From: Streptomyces sp. NBC_00536
GTDB taxonomy: Bacteria; Actinomycetota; Actinomycetes; Streptomycetales; Streptomycetaceae
Direction of reading: 5' to 3'
Length of the DNA stretch: 64,000 bases
Assembly (NCBI RefSeq): GCF_036346295.1
Contig: NZ_CP107819.1
Span: forward strand, 5,270,001 to 5,334,000
The stretch's first letter is position 1. Every line of letters starts with the position of its first letter. Shown here piece by piece: positions 14,757-24,976 of this stretch. The translations under genes and the position numbers were made by a program. The notes beneath the pieces were generated by a model, which did no database searches, had not been told where the DNA came from, and saw nothing but the letters and a program-made list of their open reading frames with translations.

Positions 14757-17279
14757 TCAGTCGAGGAGGCCCAGGCGGGGGGAGTGGGGGGTGTGGAGGC
14801 GGCGGAGGTGGGAGAGGGCGCCTGCGGAGCCGGTGGACCAGGTGGCGGTGGCGGTGGTGAGGGTGGTGTCCGGGAAGGTGGGGCGGGTGGCGGGGCCGCC
14901 GGTGCGGGTCAGGGTGATCAGGGCGGTCCGGATCGCCGCTTCGTGGAACTCTTCCGAGTGGGAGGCGGTTGCCACGTCCAGGAGGAAGTCGCCCACGCCC
15001 GACAGGCCGCAGCACTGGCCGGTCAAGGGCATGCGGGGGGCGAGGGTGGAGCAGGTGCGGGCCGCCTGCTGGGCGAGGGTGAGGTACGCGGGTTCGTTCA
15101 GGCGGGTGGCGGCTCGGACGAGGACCGTGCCGATGCCTGCGAGGCCGCGGCACCAGGAGGCGTAGCGGCGGGTCGCCGCCGGGGTGCTCGCCGCCGCGAT
15201 GATGCCCGGGGTGAGGGAGGCGAGGCGGGCGCAGGCCTGCCGGGAACGGGCGATGGTGTGCGGGTCGCCCGTCGTGGCCCCGTGTTCCAGGAGGAAGTAC
15301 GCGACGCCCGCCTCGCCGTGGGCGATGCCTTGGTCGAGGGCGGCATTGCCGGGGGAGGCGGATGCCGTGGCCGTCAGCCGGGCCTCGCCGGAGGTCAGCA
15401 GGCGGGCGCACTCGGCGGCCGCGGCGAGGTGGGCCGCATCCCCGGTGTGCCGGGCCAGGAGGAGGTGGCCGAGGCCGATGCCGGCCGCGCCCTCGATCAG
15501 GTCGGCTTCCGGAGGACCCCCGTCCGGGGTGCGGGACGGGAGGAGGGGGTGGGGGACGGCCGGGTGGGGCGTGTGGGGTGTGTTCGCCTGGGTCAGGAAC
15601 AGTTCCACGCCCGTGTGGCCCGAGTAGAAGCCCGGTGACATGTTCTTGGACCGGGGCTGTGCGGCGGTCCACTGGGCCAGGGCGGTGACGGTCTCGCGCA
15701 CGTCCGGGCGGTGCAGGTGGTGGAGGAGTTCCAGGCCGAGGCCGGAGGTGCCGCCGTAGACGTCGATCGGCGTCGGGACGCTGAGGCGGGCGGCGCGCAC
15801 CGGGTCGATGATGCGCTGCGCTTCGGCCACGCAGAACGTGAGGGTGTGGTCGGTGATCTCCCGGAGGCGGTCCGCCTCCAGGCGAGGGCCGGGGCCGGGG
15901 CGGGGGCGTGGGCGGGAGATGGCGGGGGTGCCCGTGCGGAGGTGGCTCGCGGTGGACGTCCGTACGGTCGCGTCCAGGCTCATCAGGCCGCTGATCATGG
16001 ACCGGATCCCGTGGTGGCCGGGGTCCGGGAGGACCCATGACAGGGCGTCGAGGGTCCGCTCCCGGTTGACCGCGGGGTCGGGGTCGATGATCACCGGGTC
16101 CAGGCCGGTGGCGGCGAAGTACAGGGTGGCGCCCAGAGCGTAGTGGTCGTCGGCGGGCCGGGCCGGTCCGCTCGCGCGCAGGACCGGGGCGCTGTAGCCG
16201 GGGGTCGCGCCGCCCGGGCCGGTGCCGTCGCGTTCGCTGGTCCCGAAGTCGATCAGGAAGCACCGGCCCTCGGGGTCCAGGACCACGTTGTCGGGTTTGA
16301 GGTCGCGGATCACCACGGAGTGGGTGTGGATCTCGTCGATGATGCGGAGGAGGCGGGTGGCCAGGTCCGTGAGGGCGCGCGCCGGGTACGGGCCGTGGTC
16401 CTGGACCTGCCGGCGCAGGTTCCGGTCGCCGCAGTCGGTCATCACCAGGTACTCGTCGGGTTCGTGCCGGAAGTAGTCCAGCCCGCGCGGTACGCCCGCG
16501 ACGGAGCCGAGCGCGGCGAGGACCGCGCGCTCGTTGCGCAGCCGGTCGCGGGTGTCCGTACCGCCGGCTTCCTCGGATACGAAGGCACGCGCCTGCTTGA
16601 TCACCACGAGCCGTCCGGATGCCCGGTCGAGGGCGCGGTAGACGTTCCCCTGGGGCTTGCGGACGATTCCGGCCGTGAGCGTGTAGCGGCCGCCGCCCAC
16701 GCCGAAGGCGGGCCGAGGACCCTTTCGCCGTGGTTCCGGGTCCGGCGCGAAGGGGTCCTGGGCCCAGGGCGGGCAGCGGTACGCGCCGCTCGCCAGCCCG
16801 TCGAAGAGCTGCCCGTCCGGTCCGGTCATGACCGATTCAAGCCGTCCGCCGCGCCCGGTCCGGTAGTCGCCGGTGAAGGGTCCGTAGCGGTAGTAGACGG
16901 GGGCGTCCGGGTCGACCCGCCGGTCGCTGACGACCCGTGGTCCCTCCCGGCCGCGCAGGACGGTCACGAGTTCCGCGGCGAGGGCGGCGAGGACGCCGGG
17001 GCCGGGGCCGGGGTAGACCGTGATCGCCTTGCCGACGATTCCGGGGCCGGCGGTCCCGGAGTTGATAGTGCGCAGGGTCTGCGGATTCTTGGCGAACTTC
17101 GCGTGGCACACGTGCCGTCGCAGCACCGGAAGGACCAGGGCGACCACGGCGTCGAGTTCGCCGGGACGGGCGGAAACGTGCAGCTTCCAGCCGTGGTCCA
17201 TCGCCGGCATGCGCGGGTCGTTCAGGTACGACCACGTGTCATCGGACCATCCGCGCCGGCCGACGATGGACCCGGTCAC
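14757..17279 (-). CDS. Three-domain lanthipeptide synthetase (LanL/LanKC, class III/IV)
   Basis: About 840 residues from the GTG at 17279; a GTG at 17327 is in frame but overlaps the precursor gene more deeply. Residues ~1-200 form the lyase domain (HGWKLHVSARPGELDAVVAL, KFAKNPQTL). Residues ~205-480 are a Ser/Thr kinase-like domain: Lys near 226 (VVIKQARAF), VIRDLKPDN near 325 (Ile replaces the His of HRD) and LIDFGTSE near 348. The C-terminal ~330 residues are a LanC-like cyclase with GIAHGEAG (~649), SWCRGLAG (~706) and GQCCGLSG (~754). The retained Cys ligands favour class IV (LanL) over zinc-less class III. The enzyme phosphorylates and dehydrates Ser/Thr of the precursor and closes thioether rings. 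The gene begins 2 nt after the precursor stop codon, so the two are probably co-translated. Confidence 0.9.
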   Translation of the reverse strand: MTGSIVGRRGWSDDTWSYLNDPRMPAMDHGWKLHVSARPGELDAVVALVLPVLRRHVCHAKFAKNPQTLRTINSGTAGPGIVGKAITVYPGPGPGVLAALAAELVTVLRGREGPRVVSDRRVDPDAPVYYRYGPFTGDYRTGRGGRLESVMTGPDGQLFDGLASGAYRCPPWAQDPFAPDPEPRRKGPRPAFGVGGGRYTLTAGIVRKPQGNVYRALDRASGRLVVIKQARAFVSEEAGGTDTRDRLRNERAVLAALGSVAGVPRGLDYFRHEPDEYLVMTDCGDRNLRRQVQDHGPYPARALTDLATRLLRIIDEIHTHSVVIRDLKPDNVVLDPEGRCFLIDFGTSERDGTGPGGATPGYSAPVLRASGPARPADDHYALGATLYFAATGLDPVIIDPDPAVNRERTLDALSWVLPDPGHHGIRSMISGLMSLDATVRTSTASHLRTGTPAISRPRPRPGPGPRLEADRLREITDHTLTFCVAEAQRIIDPVRAARLSVPTPIDVYGGTSGLGLELLHHLHRPDVRETVTALAQWTAAQPRSKNMSPGFYSGHTGVELFLTQANTPHTPHPAVPHPLLPSRTPDGGPPEADLIEGAAGIGLGHLLLARHTGDAAHLAAAAECARLLTSGEARLTATASASPGNAALDQGIAHGEAGVAYFLLEHGATTGDPHTIARSRQACARLASLTPGIIAAASTPAATRRYASWCRGLAGIGTVLVRAATRLNEPAYLTLAQQAARTCSTLAPRMPLTGQCCGLSGVGDFLLDVATASHSEEFHEAAIRTALITLTRTGGPATRPTFPDTTLTTATATWSTGSAGALSHLRRLHTPHSPRLGLLD

Positions 17280-17281
17280 CG

Positions 17282-17473
17282 CTAGGAGTTGTTGTCGCAG
17301 GCGAAGCGGGTGGTGGCGGTCACCCACGGGTCGGCGAGACAGGCGGTGTGCTCGCGGTCGCTGCGGTCGTCGTCCTCGAAGGCGATCATCTCGTCATCGA
17401 TCAGCAGCGGGCCCGCGTCGAGGAACTCGTCGAGCTTCGGAGCGGCCGTGCGTGCGGCTGTGGCTGTGGGCAT
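17282..17473 (-). CDS. Lanthipeptide precursor peptide
   Basis: 63 residues, ATG 17473 with GGAGG 8-9 nt upstream. Residues 1-12 are Thr/Ala-rich. Residues 13-40 form an acidic leader (LDEFLDAGPLLIDDEMIAFE). The C-terminal ~22 residues (from about HTACLADPW) look like the core: Thr43, Cys45, Thr52, Thr54, Thr55, Cys59 and Ser63. Two cysteines allow at most two (methyl)lanthionine rings. The leader has no double-glycine cleavage site and no recognisable protease or exporter gene lies nearby. The call rests on size, composition, strong ribosome site and direct linkage to the synthetase. Exact leader/core boundary unknown. Confidence 0.85.
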   Translation of the reverse strand: MPTATAARTAAPKLDEFLDAGPLLIDDEMIAFEDDDRSDREHTACLADPWVTATTRFACDNNS

Positions 17474-17556
17474 GTGGTGCCTCCGTGTCGTGTCGTTCGT
17501 GTCGTCCTGTCGTACGTGCCGTCAGGCATGGGCCTGATTCCCCGAAGGTAAGGAGG

Positions 17557-17576
17557 CCCTGTCCGGCCGGACAGGG
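17557..17576 (-). promoter_or_regulatory. 20-bp perfect palindrome before the lanthipeptide operon
   Basis: CCCTGTCCGGCCGGACAGGG is a perfect palindrome between the SMP-30 stop and the precursor gene. On the minus strand TTGACC (a possible -35 box) overlaps its left end. It could be an operator for the lanthipeptide operon or the terminator of the SMP-30 gene, whose stop codon is 26 nt away. Confidence 0.5.
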
Positions 17577-19162: not shown

Positions 19163-19311
19163 CCGGATCGGTGTCAGCCGCGCGGCGACTTGGCGAGATT
19201 CAGGTCATTTTTTTGCCTGAACTTGAAACCTCTTGGGCGATTCGGTCATCAGGAAAGGCGAGGGAGTCAAGCCGTTCTGCCCGGTAAGGGCAGTCATGAC
19301 CGTTCGGAGCG

Positions 19312-20484
19312 ATGTCCGTGCACGAGTACCCGCAGACCCCGCCGCCCCAGCCCGGCGGCCCGGGCGGCCCGGGCGGGCCCGGCCGTTCCGGCCGGCGCAA
19401 GCCGCGCGAGCGGTCCCGGCGCGCGGTGTGGATCAGCGCGGCCCTCGCCGTCGTACTGGTGGCGGGCGGCGGCGGCTTCGCGGCCTGGAAGCTGGACTGG
19501 TTCTCCGGCGACGGCGACCCGGTGAGCTTCGGCAAGGCGCCGGCCTCGGCCCCGGCCCCGGCCCCGGCCACGGGCGGCGGTGCCGCCCCCGGCGGCGGCC
19601 AGTCGGCGAAGCCCAGCGGTGACCCGGACGTGCAGCTGCCGACCGGCCCGAAGGCGGAGTTCAAGCAGACCGGCAGCCTCGACGACGGCACGAAGATAGC
19701 CAAGACCCGGCTGACCGGGGCGAAGTCCGGCTTCACGGGTGACGTGTGGGTGTGGGCGCCGAAGGAGTACGACGACCCGAAGTACGCGAAGAGCGCCTTC
19801 CCGGTGATGATCGCGCTCCCCGGCGGCAACGGCTTCCCGAACAACTACTGGTCCGACCGCAGCCTCGGCCTCCAGAAGGCCATCAGCGAAGGCGTCGAGG
19901 CGGGCACCAGCCTGCCGTTCGTGCTGATCATGCCGGTGCTGAACCCGGACGAGAAGAACTACTACGACGGCTCCGACATCCCGGGCCAGCCCAAGATGGG
20001 CACCTGGATCGCCGATGACGTCCCGGACTTCGCCCGGGCCAACTTCCGTACCTACAAGTCCCGCGACGGCTGGGCCTTCATGGGCTCCTCCTCCGGTGCC
20101 TTCGTCGGCCTCAAGCAGGTGCTCCAGCATCCGGACCGGTTCAAGGCCGTGATCGCCAGCGGTGGCGAGATCGTTCCCGATTCCCCGCTGTGGAAGGGGG
20201 ACACCGCGCTGATGGACGAGAACAACCCCCGCAAGCTCGCCCAGAAGCTGATCGACGCCAAGGGCCCCGAGGTCTACGTCAACTTCCAGCTCGGGACCAA
20301 GGAGAAGGACCGGGCCCGGATGGAGAAGTTCCAGACCGAGTTCGGCAAGGGTCCGATCAAGGTCACCATCCGGGACATCCAGAACGGCGAGCACAACGGC
20401 TGGCACTACGTGCGCGGCATGAAGGAAGGCTCGCTGGAGTGGATCAGCAAGGCGATGAAGGGCCCCAAGCCCGCCGAGGGCTGA
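19312..20484 (+). CDS. Membrane-anchored putative esterase (esterase D / mycolyltransferase-like fold), copy 1
   Basis: 390 residues, ATG 19312. A Pro/Gly-rich cytoplasmic N-terminus with a basic stretch precedes one membrane segment (residues ~43-63, AVWISAALAVVLVAGGGGFA). A Pro/Ala linker then leads to a PF00756-like alpha/beta hydrolase: SGFTGDVWVWAPKEYDDPKY, LPGGNGFPNNYW, nucleophile elbow GSSSGAF and late EHNGWHYVRGM supplying His. It is 60-65% similar by eye to the next gene and the pair is clearly a tandem duplication. Likely acts on an ester outside the membrane; substrate unknown. Confidence 0.85.
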   Translation: MSVHEYPQTPPPQPGGPGGPGGPGRSGRRKPRERSRRAVWISAALAVVLVAGGGGFAAWKLDWFSGDGDPVSFGKAPASAPAPAPATGGGAAPGGGQSAKPSGDPDVQLPTGPKAEFKQTGSLDDGTKIAKTRLTGAKSGFTGDVWVWAPKEYDDPKYAKSAFPVMIALPGGNGFPNNYWSDRSLGLQKAISEGVEAGTSLPFVLIMPVLNPDEKNYYDGSDIPGQPKMGTWIADDVPDFARANFRTYKSRDGWAFMGSSSGAFVGLKQVLQHPDRFKAVIASGGEIVPDSPLWKGDTALMDENNPRKLAQKLIDAKGPEVYVNFQLGTKEKDRARMEKFQTEFGKGPIKVTIRDIQNGEHNGWHYVRGMKEGSLEWISKAMKGPKPAEG

Positions 20485-20647
20485 TGCGCGGCACGCGCGG
20501 CTGATCCACGGCACGCGCGGCTGATGCACGTCACACGCGCCCCAGGCAACCCGACCCGCCGTTCATCCCTCTCATAGGGGTGTAAGGGGGACCAAACGGT
20601 CCTGCCCGCCTCCGCCGCGGGCGCCGGAAAGGAATCGGGACGCTTCC

Positions 20648-21865
20648 GTGCAGCATGACCACGACCAGGACCACGACCAGGACCACGACCAGCAGCACGA
20701 CCGGCAGCACCCGGCGAAGAAGCCGCCGCGGCGCGGCCGCCGCCGTCTGATCGGCGGCGCGCTCGCCCTGGCCCTCACCGCCGGGGGCGGCGCGGCGGCG
20801 TACGGCTTCGGGCTCTTCTCCGACATAGGCCACCCGATGTCCTTCGGCCAGGTCCAGGACACCGCGAGCGAAGCCACCGACGTCAGCGCCGGCACGGGCG
20901 CGCGGAACGGCGTACGGATGCCCACCGGCCCCAAGGCGGTCTTCCAGCGCACCAGCCGGCTCCCCGACGGGACCGAGATCGGCAAGACCACCCTGGCCGG
21001 GAAGAAGTCGGGCTTCACGGGTGACGTGTGGGTGTGGGCGCCGAAGGAGTACAACGACCCGCGCTACGACAAGAGCGCCTTCCCGGTGCTGATCGCGCTG
21101 CCCGGCGGCCGCGGCTACCCCACCAACTACTGGGGCACCGGACCCGGTCTCGGCCTCCAGCAGGCCGTGACCGACGGGGCGAAGTCGGGCCGGAGCCTGC
21201 CCTTCCTCCTGGTCATGCCGGTGATCAACGCCGACACGAAGCACCACTTCGACGGCTCGGACATCCCGGGAGAGCCCAGGATGGGCACCTGGATGGCCGA
21301 TGACGTGCCGGATTTCGTGAAGGCCAATTTCCGCACCTTCACCTCCCGTGACGGCTGGGCCTTCATGGGGTCCTCCTCCGGCGGTTTCGGTGCCTTCAAG
21401 CACGTCCTGAAGTACCCGGAGCGGTTCAAGGCGGTCATCGCCAGCGGTGTCGACTTCGTGCCCGATTCCCCGCTGTGGAAGGGGGACACCAAGGCGATGG
21501 ACGAGAACAACCCGGAGAAGCTGGCTGAGAAGCTGATCGCGGCGGGCGGTCCCGACGTCTACATCAACTTCCAGATCGGCACCAAGGAGAGCGGCCGGGA
21601 CAAGGCCGAGAAGTTCATGCGGGATTACACCAGGGGCCCCGTGCACACCCGCCTCCAAGTGATCCAGGATGGTGAGCACAATGGGAAGTCCTACATCCGT
21701 GGCATGAGGGAGGGTTCGCTGGAGTGGATCAGCAAAGTACTGCTGCCCCCGACCCCCGGCCCGAGCGGGTCGGCGAGCCCGGGGACCAGCCCGTCGGCGG
21801 CTCCTGGAACGAAGCCCGCCACGAAGCCCACCACGACCCCCGCTCCCGTCTCCGCCGCGCGATGA
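20648..21865 (+). CDS. Membrane-anchored putative esterase, copy 2 (His/Asp-rich tail)
   Basis: 405 residues, GTG 20648 with AAAGGAA ~17 nt upstream. It repeats the layout of copy 1: N-terminal tail, one membrane segment (LIGGALALALTAGGGAAAYG), linker, then an alpha/beta hydrolase with SGFTGDVWVWAPKEYNDP, GSSSGGFGAF nucleophile elbow and GEHNGKSYIRGM. Its distinguishing features are an N-terminal stretch of His, Asp and Gln (HDQDHDQDHDQQHD) and a Pro/Thr/Ser-rich C-terminal tail. Its TGA overlaps the ATG of the protease gene (ATGA), implying coupled translation. Confidence 0.85.
   Translation: MQHDHDQDHDQDHDQQHDRQHPAKKPPRRGRRRLIGGALALALTAGGGAAAYGFGLFSDIGHPMSFGQVQDTASEATDVSAGTGARNGVRMPTGPKAVFQRTSRLPDGTEIGKTTLAGKKSGFTGDVWVWAPKEYNDPRYDKSAFPVLIALPGGRGYPTNYWGTGPGLGLQQAVTDGAKSGRSLPFLLVMPVINADTKHHFDGSDIPGEPRMGTWMADDVPDFVKANFRTFTSRDGWAFMGSSSGGFGAFKHVLKYPERFKAVIASGVDFVPDSPLWKGDTKAMDENNPEKLAEKLIAAGGPDVYINFQIGTKESGRDKAEKFMRDYTRGPVHTRLQVIQDGEHNGKSYIRGMREGSLEWISKVLLPPTPGPSGSASPGTSPSAAPGTKPATKPTTTPAPVSAAR
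20657..20692 (+). repeat. 12-bp tandem repeat coding for DHDQ
   Basis: Three perfect copies of GACCACGACCAG encode the acidic/histidine tail of the second esterase. In-frame expansion of this kind is prone to copy-number change. Confidence 0.9.
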
Positions 21866-22656
21866 GGCGGCCGGTGGTGAAGGGCGCGTCCGTCGCGGCC
21901 GCGGGGCTCGCGGCGGTCGTCGCCGTGGCGGTCTTCGACTCGGCGAGCGCCGACAAGCCCGAGGCGATGCCCTTCCCCACCGTCGGCGTGCTCATGGCGA
22001 ACGGCGAGCACTGGTGCACGGCCAGCGTGGTCGACAGCCCCAAGGGCAATGTCGTCGCCACCGCCGCGCACTGCGTGGCCCCGGCCGGTGAGGACGGCTC
22101 GCCCGGCGAGGTGGCCCACGACGGGCTCGCCATCGGCGAGCTGTCGTTCGCCCCCGCCTTCACCGGCGAGGGCAGCGGCTCGCAGCCACTGGGCCGCTGG
22201 AAGGTCAGCGCCATCCATGTGGACGAGCGCTGGACGAAGTGGGGCGACGACACCGCCGACTTCGCCTTCCTGACCATCGAGCCCGACAAGAGCGGCCACA
22301 CCGTCCAGCAGGCGGTGGGCCACGGTGAGGCCCCGACCCCCGACTGGGCCTCCGGCTACGAGCGCGACGTCACCGTGGTCGGCTATCCGGACTCGGCGTT
22401 CAACCCGAAGAACAAGCCGGTCTCCTGCACCACCCAGACCACGCACGACTCCGACGACCCGAACATGCTCTACATCAGCTGCGCGGGCTTCTGGACGGGC
22501 ACCAGCGGCAGCCCCTGGATCGCCGACCGGGGCGGCCCCGGCTCGCCGGGCCGGATCATCGCGGTGCTCAGCGGCGGGGACACGGACGTGGACTCCACGG
22601 CCGCGCTCTTCGACGGGCGGGCGAAGGCCCTGTACGAACAGGCCGCGCGCGGCTGA
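21862..22656 (+). CDS. Secreted trypsin-like serine protease
   Basis: 264 residues from the ATG at 21862, which overlaps the preceding stop (ATGA). An upstream in-frame GTG (21724) lies within the esterase gene and would bury the signal peptide, so it was rejected. A signal peptide (~30 residues, ending near DSASA) is followed by a chymotrypsin-fold domain with the full triad: His in ATAAHCV, Asp in DDTADFAFL, Ser in GTSGSPW. Cys pairs (WCTA/AHC, SCTT/SCAG) fit two disulfides. No long propeptide is seen. Confidence 0.88.
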   Translation: MRRPVVKGASVAAAGLAAVVAVAVFDSASADKPEAMPFPTVGVLMANGEHWCTASVVDSPKGNVVATAAHCVAPAGEDGSPGEVAHDGLAIGELSFAPAFTGEGSGSQPLGRWKVSAIHVDERWTKWGDDTADFAFLTIEPDKSGHTVQQAVGHGEAPTPDWASGYERDVTVVGYPDSAFNPKNKPVSCTTQTTHDSDDPNMLYISCAGFWTGTSGSPWIADRGGPGSPGRIIAVLSGGDTDVDSTAALFDGRAKALYEQAARG

Positions 22657-22709
22657 CCGGTCCCGCGCGCGGCCGCCCGTTCGCGGCCCCCTCGTGCACC
22701 CTCGGCCGG

Positions 22710-23528
22710 TCAGCCCTTGAACAGGGAGTTCACCTCGCCGTAGGACAGGGACCCGGAGAGCGCGCCGTACGTGCCGCCCGCGAGCAGCTCCTCGGTCGCG
22801 CGCCGGACCACGGCGTACGCGGCCTCCGCGACCCACGAGCCGAGGCTGACCCGGGCCACGCCCAGGGCGCCCAGCGCGGCGACGTCCGGCGCGTCGGGCC
22901 CGACCAGGACGTTCAGCGGGGCGTCGATCCCGCGGGCCAGCTCGGTCACGGTCGCCGGGTCGTACACCCCGGGCACGAAGACGCCGCTGGCCCCGGCCTC
23001 CAGGTAGGCGGCGGCGCGGGTCAGGGTCTCCTCCAGGCGGGCCGGACCGGGCTCGCCGAGGCCGAAGAGGTAGGTGTCCACCCGGGCGTTGATGTAGAGC
23101 GGGACCCCGAGGGCATCCGCGGCCGCGCGGGCGGCGGCGAGGCGCTCGGCCTGCTCGGCCGGGTCCCGGACGCTGTCCTCGATGTTGACCCCGACGGCTC
23201 CGGCGGCCAGTACCCCGGTGACGGTCTCGCCGACCCCGGCGGCGTCGGCGCCGAAGCCGCCCTCGATGTCGGCGGTCACCGGGACGTCCACCGCGCCCAC
23301 CACGCGGGCGATCAGGTCGAGGGCCCGGTCCCGGGCCAGGGAGTCCCCGTCGGGGGAACCGAGGGACCAGGCGACACCGGCGCTGGTGGTGGCGACGGCC
23401 TTGGACCCGGCGGCCTCGACGAGCCGGGCGCTCGCGACGTCCCAGGCGTTGGCGAGGGCGAGGGGGGCCGCGGGGGTGTGCAGTGCGTGGAAGGCGTGGA
23501 CGCGGGAAAGGTCAACTGTCTTGGTCAT
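22710..23528 (-). CDS. Isocitrate lyase / PEP mutase superfamily enzyme
   Basis: 272 residues of the phosphoenolpyruvate mutase/isocitrate lyase fold: ALANAWDVASARLVEAAG, ATTSAGVAWSLGSPDGD, VPVTADIEGGFG (metal-binding Asp/Glu) and VGVNIEDSVRD. The KKCGH motif of true isocitrate and methylisocitrate lyases is missing, so it belongs to the uncharacterised branch often labelled PEP-mutase-like; an oxaloacetate or 2-oxoacid C-C lyase activity is possible. No phosphonate genes are nearby. Convergent with the protease gene. Confidence 0.85.
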   Translation of the reverse strand: MTKTVDLSRVHAFHALHTPAAPLALANAWDVASARLVEAAGSKAVATTSAGVAWSLGSPDGDSLARDRALDLIARVVGAVDVPVTADIEGGFGADAAGVGETVTGVLAAGAVGVNIEDSVRDPAEQAERLAAARAAADALGVPLYINARVDTYLFGLGEPGPARLEETLTRAAAYLEAGASGVFVPGVYDPATVTELARGIDAPLNVLVGPDAPDVAALGALGVARVSLGSWVAEAAYAVVRRATEELLAGGTYGALSGSLSYGEVNSLFKG

Positions 23529-23637: not shown

Positions 23638-24768
23638 CTAGGGAGCCAGCCCCGTCTTCGCCCCCGCGCCGCAGAGGGGGACCACGGCCGAGCGGCCCGC
23701 GAGGGGGTCGCCGGGCGCGTCCGGGCCGACGGCGGCCCAGCACGCCACACCGGTCGGCTCGACGAACAGCCCCCGCGCCGCCAGGTCCCGCTGGGCCGCG
23801 CGGAGCCGGTCCTCGGTCACCGTGAGGAAGGTGCCGCCCGACTCCCGTACCGCCGCCAGGATCTGCCGGGCCCGTGGCGGGGCCGGGATCGCGATCCCCT
23901 CGGCCAGCGTCGCCGCCGGCTCCGGGGCCGGGCCCGCCGGTTCGCGCTCCCCGGCGGCGAAGGCCCGCGCCAGCGGAGCCATGGCCGCCGCCTGGACGGC
24001 GATGAGCGCGGGGGCCCGTACGCCCGCGCGCGCCAGTTCCCGGGCGGCCAGCGCCGCGCCGAGCAGCAGCGTGCCGTTGCCCACGGGCACCACCAGCACC
24101 TCGGGCAGCTCGCCGCCCAGCTCCTCCCACAGCTCGTACACATAGGTCTTCGTGCCGTGCAGGAAGTACGGGTTGAAGACGTGGCTCGCGTAGAAGACGC
24201 CCGGCTCGTCGGCCGCGGCCCGCGCGGCCCGGGCCGCCGCCTCGCGCCCGCCCGGCACCACCCGGACCCGCGCGCCGTGCGCCCGCATCTGTTCGGTCTT
24301 CTTCTCCGAGGTGCCCTCCGGTACGAAGACCTCGCAGGCGAGTCCGGCCCGCGCGCAGTAGGCCGCGACCGAGGTCCCGGCGTTGCCGCTGCTGTCGGCC
24401 ACCACCCGGCGCGGACCGAGGCGGCGCGCCAGCTCGGCGAGCATCACCGCACCCCGGTCCTTGAACGACAGGGTCGGCATCAGGAAGTCGAGTTTGGCGG
24501 AGATCCGCCCGGTCAGCGGGACCAGGGGGGTGCGGCCCTCGCCGAGGGTCACCGCGGGCGCTCCCGGCAGCGGCAGCGCGGGCCCGTAGCGCCACAGCGA
24601 GTTCGGCGCGGCTCCGGGATCCGGGGCCTTCGGCGGGTCCGGGGTGAAGTCGAGGTCCCAGGGGCCCGCACAGACGGGGCAGCACCAGGGGGCGGTGCGG
24701 ACGTCGGCGCGGGCGCCGTCGTCGGGACAGACGTAGCCGGGCAGTCCGTGCGTCGTTCCGTGCGTCAT
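23638..24768 (-). CDS. Threonine-synthase-like PLP enzyme with N-terminal zinc ribbon
   Basis: 376 residues from ATG 24768 (MTHGTTHGLPGYVCPDD). Four cysteines at the N-terminus (YVCPDDG, WCCPVCAG) form a zinc-ribbon-like module. A fold-type II PLP domain follows: TPLVPLTGRISAKLDF, the Schiff-base lysine in TLSFKDRG, the SSGNAG phosphate/carboxylate loop and VVPVGNGTLLLG glycine loop. It resembles the threonine synthase-like proteins found away from thrB; whether it uses O-phosphohomoserine is uncertain. Upstream in-frame ATG at 24951 lies in non-conserved sequence. Divergent from the next gene with ~208 bp between. Confidence 0.85.
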   Translation of the reverse strand: MTHGTTHGLPGYVCPDDGARADVRTAPWCCPVCAGPWDLDFTPDPPKAPDPGAAPNSLWRYGPALPLPGAPAVTLGEGRTPLVPLTGRISAKLDFLMPTLSFKDRGAVMLAELARRLGPRRVVADSSGNAGTSVAAYCARAGLACEVFVPEGTSEKKTEQMRAHGARVRVVPGGREAAARAARAAADEPGVFYASHVFNPYFLHGTKTYVYELWEELGGELPEVLVVPVGNGTLLLGAALAARELARAGVRAPALIAVQAAAMAPLARAFAAGEREPAGPAPEPAATLAEGIAIPAPPRARQILAAVRESGGTFLTVTEDRLRAAQRDLAARGLFVEPTGVACWAAVGPDAPGDPLAGRSAVVPLCGAGAKTGLAP

Positions 24769-24976
24769 GCGGGGCGCCTCCGCTTCGTGGCCCGTACGCG
24801 GGCTCGTGCGCCGCCGCCGGGCCGGTCTCCGTGACGGATCGTATGTGAGGGGTGGCTCAGGGGAAGGGCCGCGGGGGCGACCGGGCCGGGAACCGTTGCC
24901 CTTGCGTACTATTCGCGCAGTCGTTCGCCACACCCCGCCCGCACCCCGCACCCCGCCTGATGGAGCAGCTCACGCC

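Follow-up and report, generated by a model that had tools for sequence, protein, structure and literature searches.

What does the short reading frame in front of a three-domain synthetase gene in Streptomyces sp. NBC_00536 encode, and does the pair belong to a described group of lanthipeptides? The window analysed here is a stretch of 64,000 nucleotides (contig NZ_CP107819.1, positions 5,270,001 to 5,334,000) from a genome of 9.15 Mb in 4 contigs. The two genes almost certainly form an SflA-family locus for a class IV lanthipeptide. As a combination of precursor and synthetase it is an ordinary further member of this described family, and the one point that goes beyond annotation is a proposal on the direction of the rings, which the founding SflA paper may already contain.

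The features of the locus are listed in Table 1. A sequence-only reading of this DNA had described a 63-residue precursor with a strong ribosome binding site, followed after 2 nt by a lyase-kinase-cyclase synthetase. The start and stop codons, the GGAGG motif, the GTG start of the synthetase and its three Pfam domains bore this out, and the residues listed by that reading (Thr43, Cys45, Thr52, Thr54, Thr55, Cys59 and Ser63) matched the translation exactly. The view of the locus as a minimal one, with a lanthipeptide precursor and a single three-domain synthetase, was likewise upheld. In the mechanically produced list of open reading frames, an earlier in-frame GTG for the synthetase was present at 17327, within the precursor gene. 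As a GTG 1 to 2 nt past the precursor stop was found in all six loci of the close SflA clade (the window, L009, L010, L027, L028 and L029), the start at 17279 is favoured. The spacing between peptide and synthetase differed in four divergent loci (L030-L033).

Table 1. Features of the locus and its surroundings (positions in the window)
Feature	Position	Strand	Basis
SflA-family class IV lanthipeptide precursor gene, 63 aa	17282..17473	-	ORF, NF038148, homologues
Precursor start and stop codons	ATG 17473, TAG 17282	-	read from sequence
Precursor leader (about residues 1-42) and core (about 43-63)			boundary estimated from conservation
Precursor ribosome binding site GGAGG	17480..17484	-	read directly; just 5' of ATG
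Class IV lanthipeptide synthetase LanL, 840 aa, GTG start	14757..17279	-	ORF, Pfam, NF038150
RamC_N, N-terminal phospho-Ser/Thr lyase-type domain, residues 12-186	16722..17246	-	Pfam, over cut-off
Ser/Thr kinase domain (Pkinase), residues 211-443; VVIK, IRDLKPDN, DFG	15951..16649	-	Pfam, over cut-off
LanC-like cyclase domain (LANC_like), residues 502-832	14784..15776	-	Pfam, over cut-off
Cys710 (WCRG), presumed zinc ligand	15150..15152	-	WCRG in 10/10 synthetases
Cys756-Cys757 (QCCG), presumed zinc ligands	15009..15014	-	QCCG in 10/10 synthetases and in 8car_A
TACCTT, possible -10 element	17545..17550	-	recurs upstream of precursor in related loci
Nearest neighbour, Uma2-type putative nuclease	14671-14090		Pfam
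Nearest neighbour, SMP-30/NHL-repeat protein	18988-17603		Pfam
Amino-acid permease gene	10329-8848		4.4 kb beyond synthetase end

The precursor matched the NCBIfam model NF038148 ("SflA family class IV lanthipeptide") with 93.8 bits, the cut-off being 25 (E 4e-27). Against 5.8 billion proteins, a homologue search gave 45 rows, one of them the query, and 40 of the 44 homologues carried the name SflA in a source, while the other four were without it. A contig scan of genomes with a single protein as query, which finds close relatives only, gave two relatives. A novel precursor group was ruled out by the NF038148 score together with the naming of these homologues. The precursor had been taken for an orphan from an uncharacterised group; this claim had to be given up, since the peptide falls to the SflA family, for which NCBI has a named model and whose founding member is published. 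By this database match at the family level (NF038148), the peptide would count among the known lanthipeptides.

The source of SflA is Ren et al. 2020 (ACS Chem Biol 15:1642), cited here by way of excerpts of PMC8358304, PMC10885120 and PMC9576775. According to the excerpts of PMC8358304, the Streptomyces peptide SflA contains two non-interlaced thioether rings, and a table of that review names NRRL S-1022 as the producer, with no activity listed. The excerpts of PMC9576775 name two class IV members with an earlier characterisation, the venezuelins and SflA. In a survey (PMC7268733, in part) class IV was represented by 815 clusters and 401 precursors, and a Kitasatospora cluster was reported as fully similar to SflA (PMC11117518, in part).

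Among the 45 proteins of the search, query included, Cys45-Leu46, Pro49-Thr55 and Cys59 were invariant (45/45). Position 43 was Thr in 36 of the 45, Ser in two and neither of these in seven. The comparison was widened to 95 peptides, namely the 45 search proteins, 31 locus peptides from the three genome samples described below and the 19 remaining matches of the family sample, the window's own peptide being counted in both the first and the second set. After merging of identical tails 79 distinct tails were obtained. The pattern Cys-x3-Pro-x2-Thr-x2..4-Thr-x3-Cys was present in 75 of them, and TATT was kept in 66. No Ser or Thr was found two residues before the first Cys in 34 of the 79 tails, nor anywhere between the FED motif and the first Cys in 15. 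Nine of the 79 (L061, L062, L063, L065, L066, L069, L070, L072 and L073) were PWVTYVPT-like, with one Thr per place and without Thr43 and Thr54. The partial set of 45 plus 31 peptides, which took the better-scoring half of the matches from the 200-genome sample, gave 61 tails, 16 of them without Ser or Thr at position 43 and 60 with TATT; the off-pattern tails came with the other 19 peptides.

The conserved pattern of Cys and Thr appears compatible with two non-interlaced thioether rings. Since two non-overlapping rings, Cys45-Thr52 and Thr55-Cys59, satisfy all 75 tails, we infer these two rings for the family; Thr43 and Thr54 would then be dispensable. On balance, ring 1 of the SflA family, including the member in the window, would probably be closed "backwards", by addition of Cys45 onto Thr52 with the Cys in the N-terminal position, and ring 2 forwards, from Thr55 onto Cys59. 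The same two rings would be formed without Thr43 in the sister types EACLPEPFPTATTRVGCD, QACLPNPYPTATTRFDCEL and VACLADPWVTYVPTRFPC, and in the VACLADPWVTYVPTRFPC type without Thr54 as well.

In lanthipeptide rings the acceptor more commonly stands before the Cys than after it. This preference, and the presence of Thr or Ser at position 43 in 38 of the 45 homologues, would fit another layout within the same family, in which Thr43 and Cys45 form ring A and Thr52, Thr54 and Thr55 are left for one ring to Cys59. Such a layout is considered unlikely, however, as Ser and Thr were absent from that place in the 34 tails mentioned above, although the first Cys and both Thr were in register in 75 of 79, and as Thr52 would be conserved for no ring. 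Because Thr43 is common, a Thr43-Cys45 ring may nevertheless occur in members that have this residue. For the family as a whole, the rings Cys45-Thr52 and Thr55-Cys59 are the preferred assignment.

Four of the 79 tails (L076, L078, L079 and L080) were off-pattern. L079 and L080, found beside LanLs, contained two Cys around several Thr at a spacing other than that of the pattern. In L078 the second Cys was lost, yet a LanL stretch adjoined the peptide, while L076 had one Cys, with LanL absent from its 3-kb stretch. The cores of L078, L079 and L080 possibly have different ring layouts. One genome (G364, contig C3) contained both L076 and L069, about 5.4 Mb apart, and was the sole genome with two matches in the 200-genome sample.

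Two sister groups were also observed. A divergent SflA-like group (L015, L016, L017, L018, L034-L037, L059 and L075) had cores such as EACLPEPFPTATTRVGCD and QACLPNPYPTATTRFDCEL, without Thr43 and mostly with a shorter C-terminus, and its LanLs were about 45-56% identical to that of the window. The second group consisted of the nine peptides with PWVTYVPT-like tails and had cores such as CLADPWVTYVPTRFPC, with one residue more between the proposed rings and with Thr54 replaced. Beside each peptide of this group stood a LanL with about 51-54% identity across the compared part.

The region upstream of the precursor was aligned with those of five related loci. The hexamer TACCTT was present in five of the six regions, and TACCGT in the sixth. 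In the five other regions, not in the window, TTGTCA was found about 17 nt before TACC(T/G)T. From this recurrence TACCTT may be a promoter element, while a scan of the locus for consensus sigma-70 promoters and terminators found nothing. A perfect 20-bp palindrome, CCCTGTCCGGCCGGACAGGG, was located at 17557-17576, between the end of the upstream gene and the precursor. As it was not found in the five other aligned upstream regions, it was not read as a family operator, and an end signal for the gene upstream is the likelier reading.

Of 150 genomes sampled from the genus, 8 contained the SflA family, as did 38 of 200 sampled from the taxonomic family, which came from 4 of 17 genera. Among 61 relatives it was detected in six, four of which belonged to another family of the same order and gave weaker scores. 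These samples overlap, and the source genome itself is included in each count. The count in the genus suggests that the SflA locus is often absent or has often been lost. This sparse occurrence, and the decayed-looking relatives L076 and L078, would be in line with a silent or decaying remnant. A remnant is very improbable, since both frames are open, the core fits the invariant positions, the catalytic motifs are kept and the upstream region has the TACC(T/G)T element in common with relatives.

The synthetase showed the residues expected of a LanL. All 10 synthetases compared retained the VVIK lysine and the DLKP core, as well as the WCRG and QCCG motifs. In place of the RD of the kinase, GD or VD was present in L030-L033, the four divergent loci, and in L010 DYG replaced DFG. 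Cys710, Cys756 and Cys757 were present at the expected motifs of the cyclase and are putative zinc ligands, a role which these cysteine motifs have in the LanC family. The best-scoring structure was 8car_A, a solved chain of 865 aa with the database name "Serine/threonine protein kinase", presumably SgbL, which matched residues 6-838 of the synthetase with 516 bits. Its WCRG/FCQG and QCCG motifs aligned with those of the synthetase, but the two proteins are substantially diverged, and the kinase motif is DFE in 8car_A and DFG in the synthetase.

The precursor group and the ring pattern of venezuelin, globisporin and streptocollin are probably unlike those of the locus in the window, and AmfS/SapB systems of class III share the lyase-kinase-cyclase order. 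For the former three, the class IV enzyme architecture is alike in the excerpts of a review (PMC12328550). A class III system (LanKC, AmfS/SapB-like) with an unusual leader would account for the three-domain order common to both classes, for the Pfam name RamC_N of the lyase domain and for the 339.6 bits scored against NF038151, the LanKC model of class III, but it has next to no probability and was ruled out by the curated models, as this score lies below the equivalog cut-off of 575 while the class IV LanL model NF038150 gave 880.8 bits (E 1e-264), 230 above its equivalog cut-off of 650, as the precursor fits the class IV SflA model, and as the cyclase has zinc-type cysteines, which LanKC cyclases are without according to excerpts of PMC7268733. 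The comparison of the peptide with AmfS/SapB was misplaced, because the synthetase is a class IV LanL and AmfS/SapB belong to the other class. That the leader is not of the class III LxLQ type, as had also been stated, proved correct.

The leader contained the stretch (R/L)DAGPL...FED that is conserved in the family. At residue 18 the window's peptide had Leu where 42 of 45 homologues have Arg, and its N-terminus, ARTAAPKLDEFLDAGPLL, differed from that of most relatives. The likeness to the Sfl locus of Streptomyces sp. NRRL S-1022, which is drawn via the NCBI SflA model, extends to a class IV LanL beside the precursor and to a locus in which no protease was recognised. Excerpts of PMC8358304 state that an aminopeptidase gene outside the SflA cluster can assist in leader removal, and excerpts of PMC10885120 that the SflA leader is cut behind the PDLLK Lys, and subsequently trimmed, by an AplP-like M1 enzyme from outside the cluster. 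The window leader differs from SflA in being without PDLLK as such; APK was present at residues 11-13, and 7 of 45 homologues, the window's included, had a Lys at the alignment place of the PDLLK Lys. Nine Peptidase_M1 matches were found elsewhere in the same genome, the published cleavage site not being identical in the window leader.

The standard class IV route consists of phosphorylation, elimination and zinc-assisted thiol addition. Applied to the window, the (R/L)DAGPL...FED stretch of the leader would be bound by LanL, the kinase domain would phosphorylate core threonines, and the N-terminal lyase domain would eliminate the phosphate to give dehydrobutyrines. The zinc-containing LanC-like domain would then add the two cysteines to two of these dehydrobutyrines. 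The product would have a methyllanthionine ring Cys45-Thr52 and, separate from it, a second one, Thr55-Cys59, while Thr54 would stay linear, dehydrated or not. The leader would be removed by a housekeeping metalloprotease of the M1 type encoded elsewhere, which would probably cut first near Lys13 and then trim.

Pfam recognised no protease, transporter or tailoring gene directly beside the pair among 10 flanking ORFs, four of which were without a family; some of these ORFs overlap each other or other genes, and an accessory gene may have gone unrecognised. This agrees with the sequence-only reading, and a minimal locus without a protease is explained by the leader protease of SflA being encoded outside the cluster, as described in the reviews. 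Genes of the YchF, polyphosphate glucokinase and IspH types lie between the permease gene and the synthetase. Of 50 loci of 3 kb each, among them that of the window, 49 had a LanL stretch adjoining the peptide (31/31 and 18/19).

Accessory genes were also sought among ORFs of 80 aa or longer, which were compared over the 17.0-18.6 kb surrounding the pair in nine other loci and over 18.5 kb surrounding that of the window. Beyond the pair itself, no gene family recurred in more than three of these ten loci (groups of fewer than 60 ORFs), so that precursor and LanL would most likely be the whole local cluster. L028 had flanking genes in common with the window on both sides, and L029 on one side, where a protein of the PALP pyridoxal-enzyme family is encoded at 23638-24951 of the window. 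No flanking genes common to the window and the other seven loci were found at the cut-off used. Two further genes recurred outside the window: an upstream gene of the glycosyl-hydrolase-65 type in L028 and L029, and a short ORF without Pfam family just past LanL in L031 and L032. In the window, a PEP-mutase-family protein (PF13714) is encoded at 22710-23528 (minus strand), beside several family-less ORFs in 19294-22836. Elsewhere in the genome (G000:C1), three further long ORFs with LanC-like matches were found near 7274476 (994 aa), 1288233 (1159 aa) and 665674 (903 aa), and these are probably other lanthipeptide loci.

The possible lead of an orphan lanthipeptide is closed, as the precursor, the class of the enzyme and the lack of a protease in the locus are all in keeping with a family already described. 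The useful remainder is a ring assignment from natural variants that can be tested. If the assignment is true, one enzyme fold would set both ring directions from the strongly conserved C-x3-P-x2-T..T-x3-C block, which would point to one conserved target across many actinomycetes.
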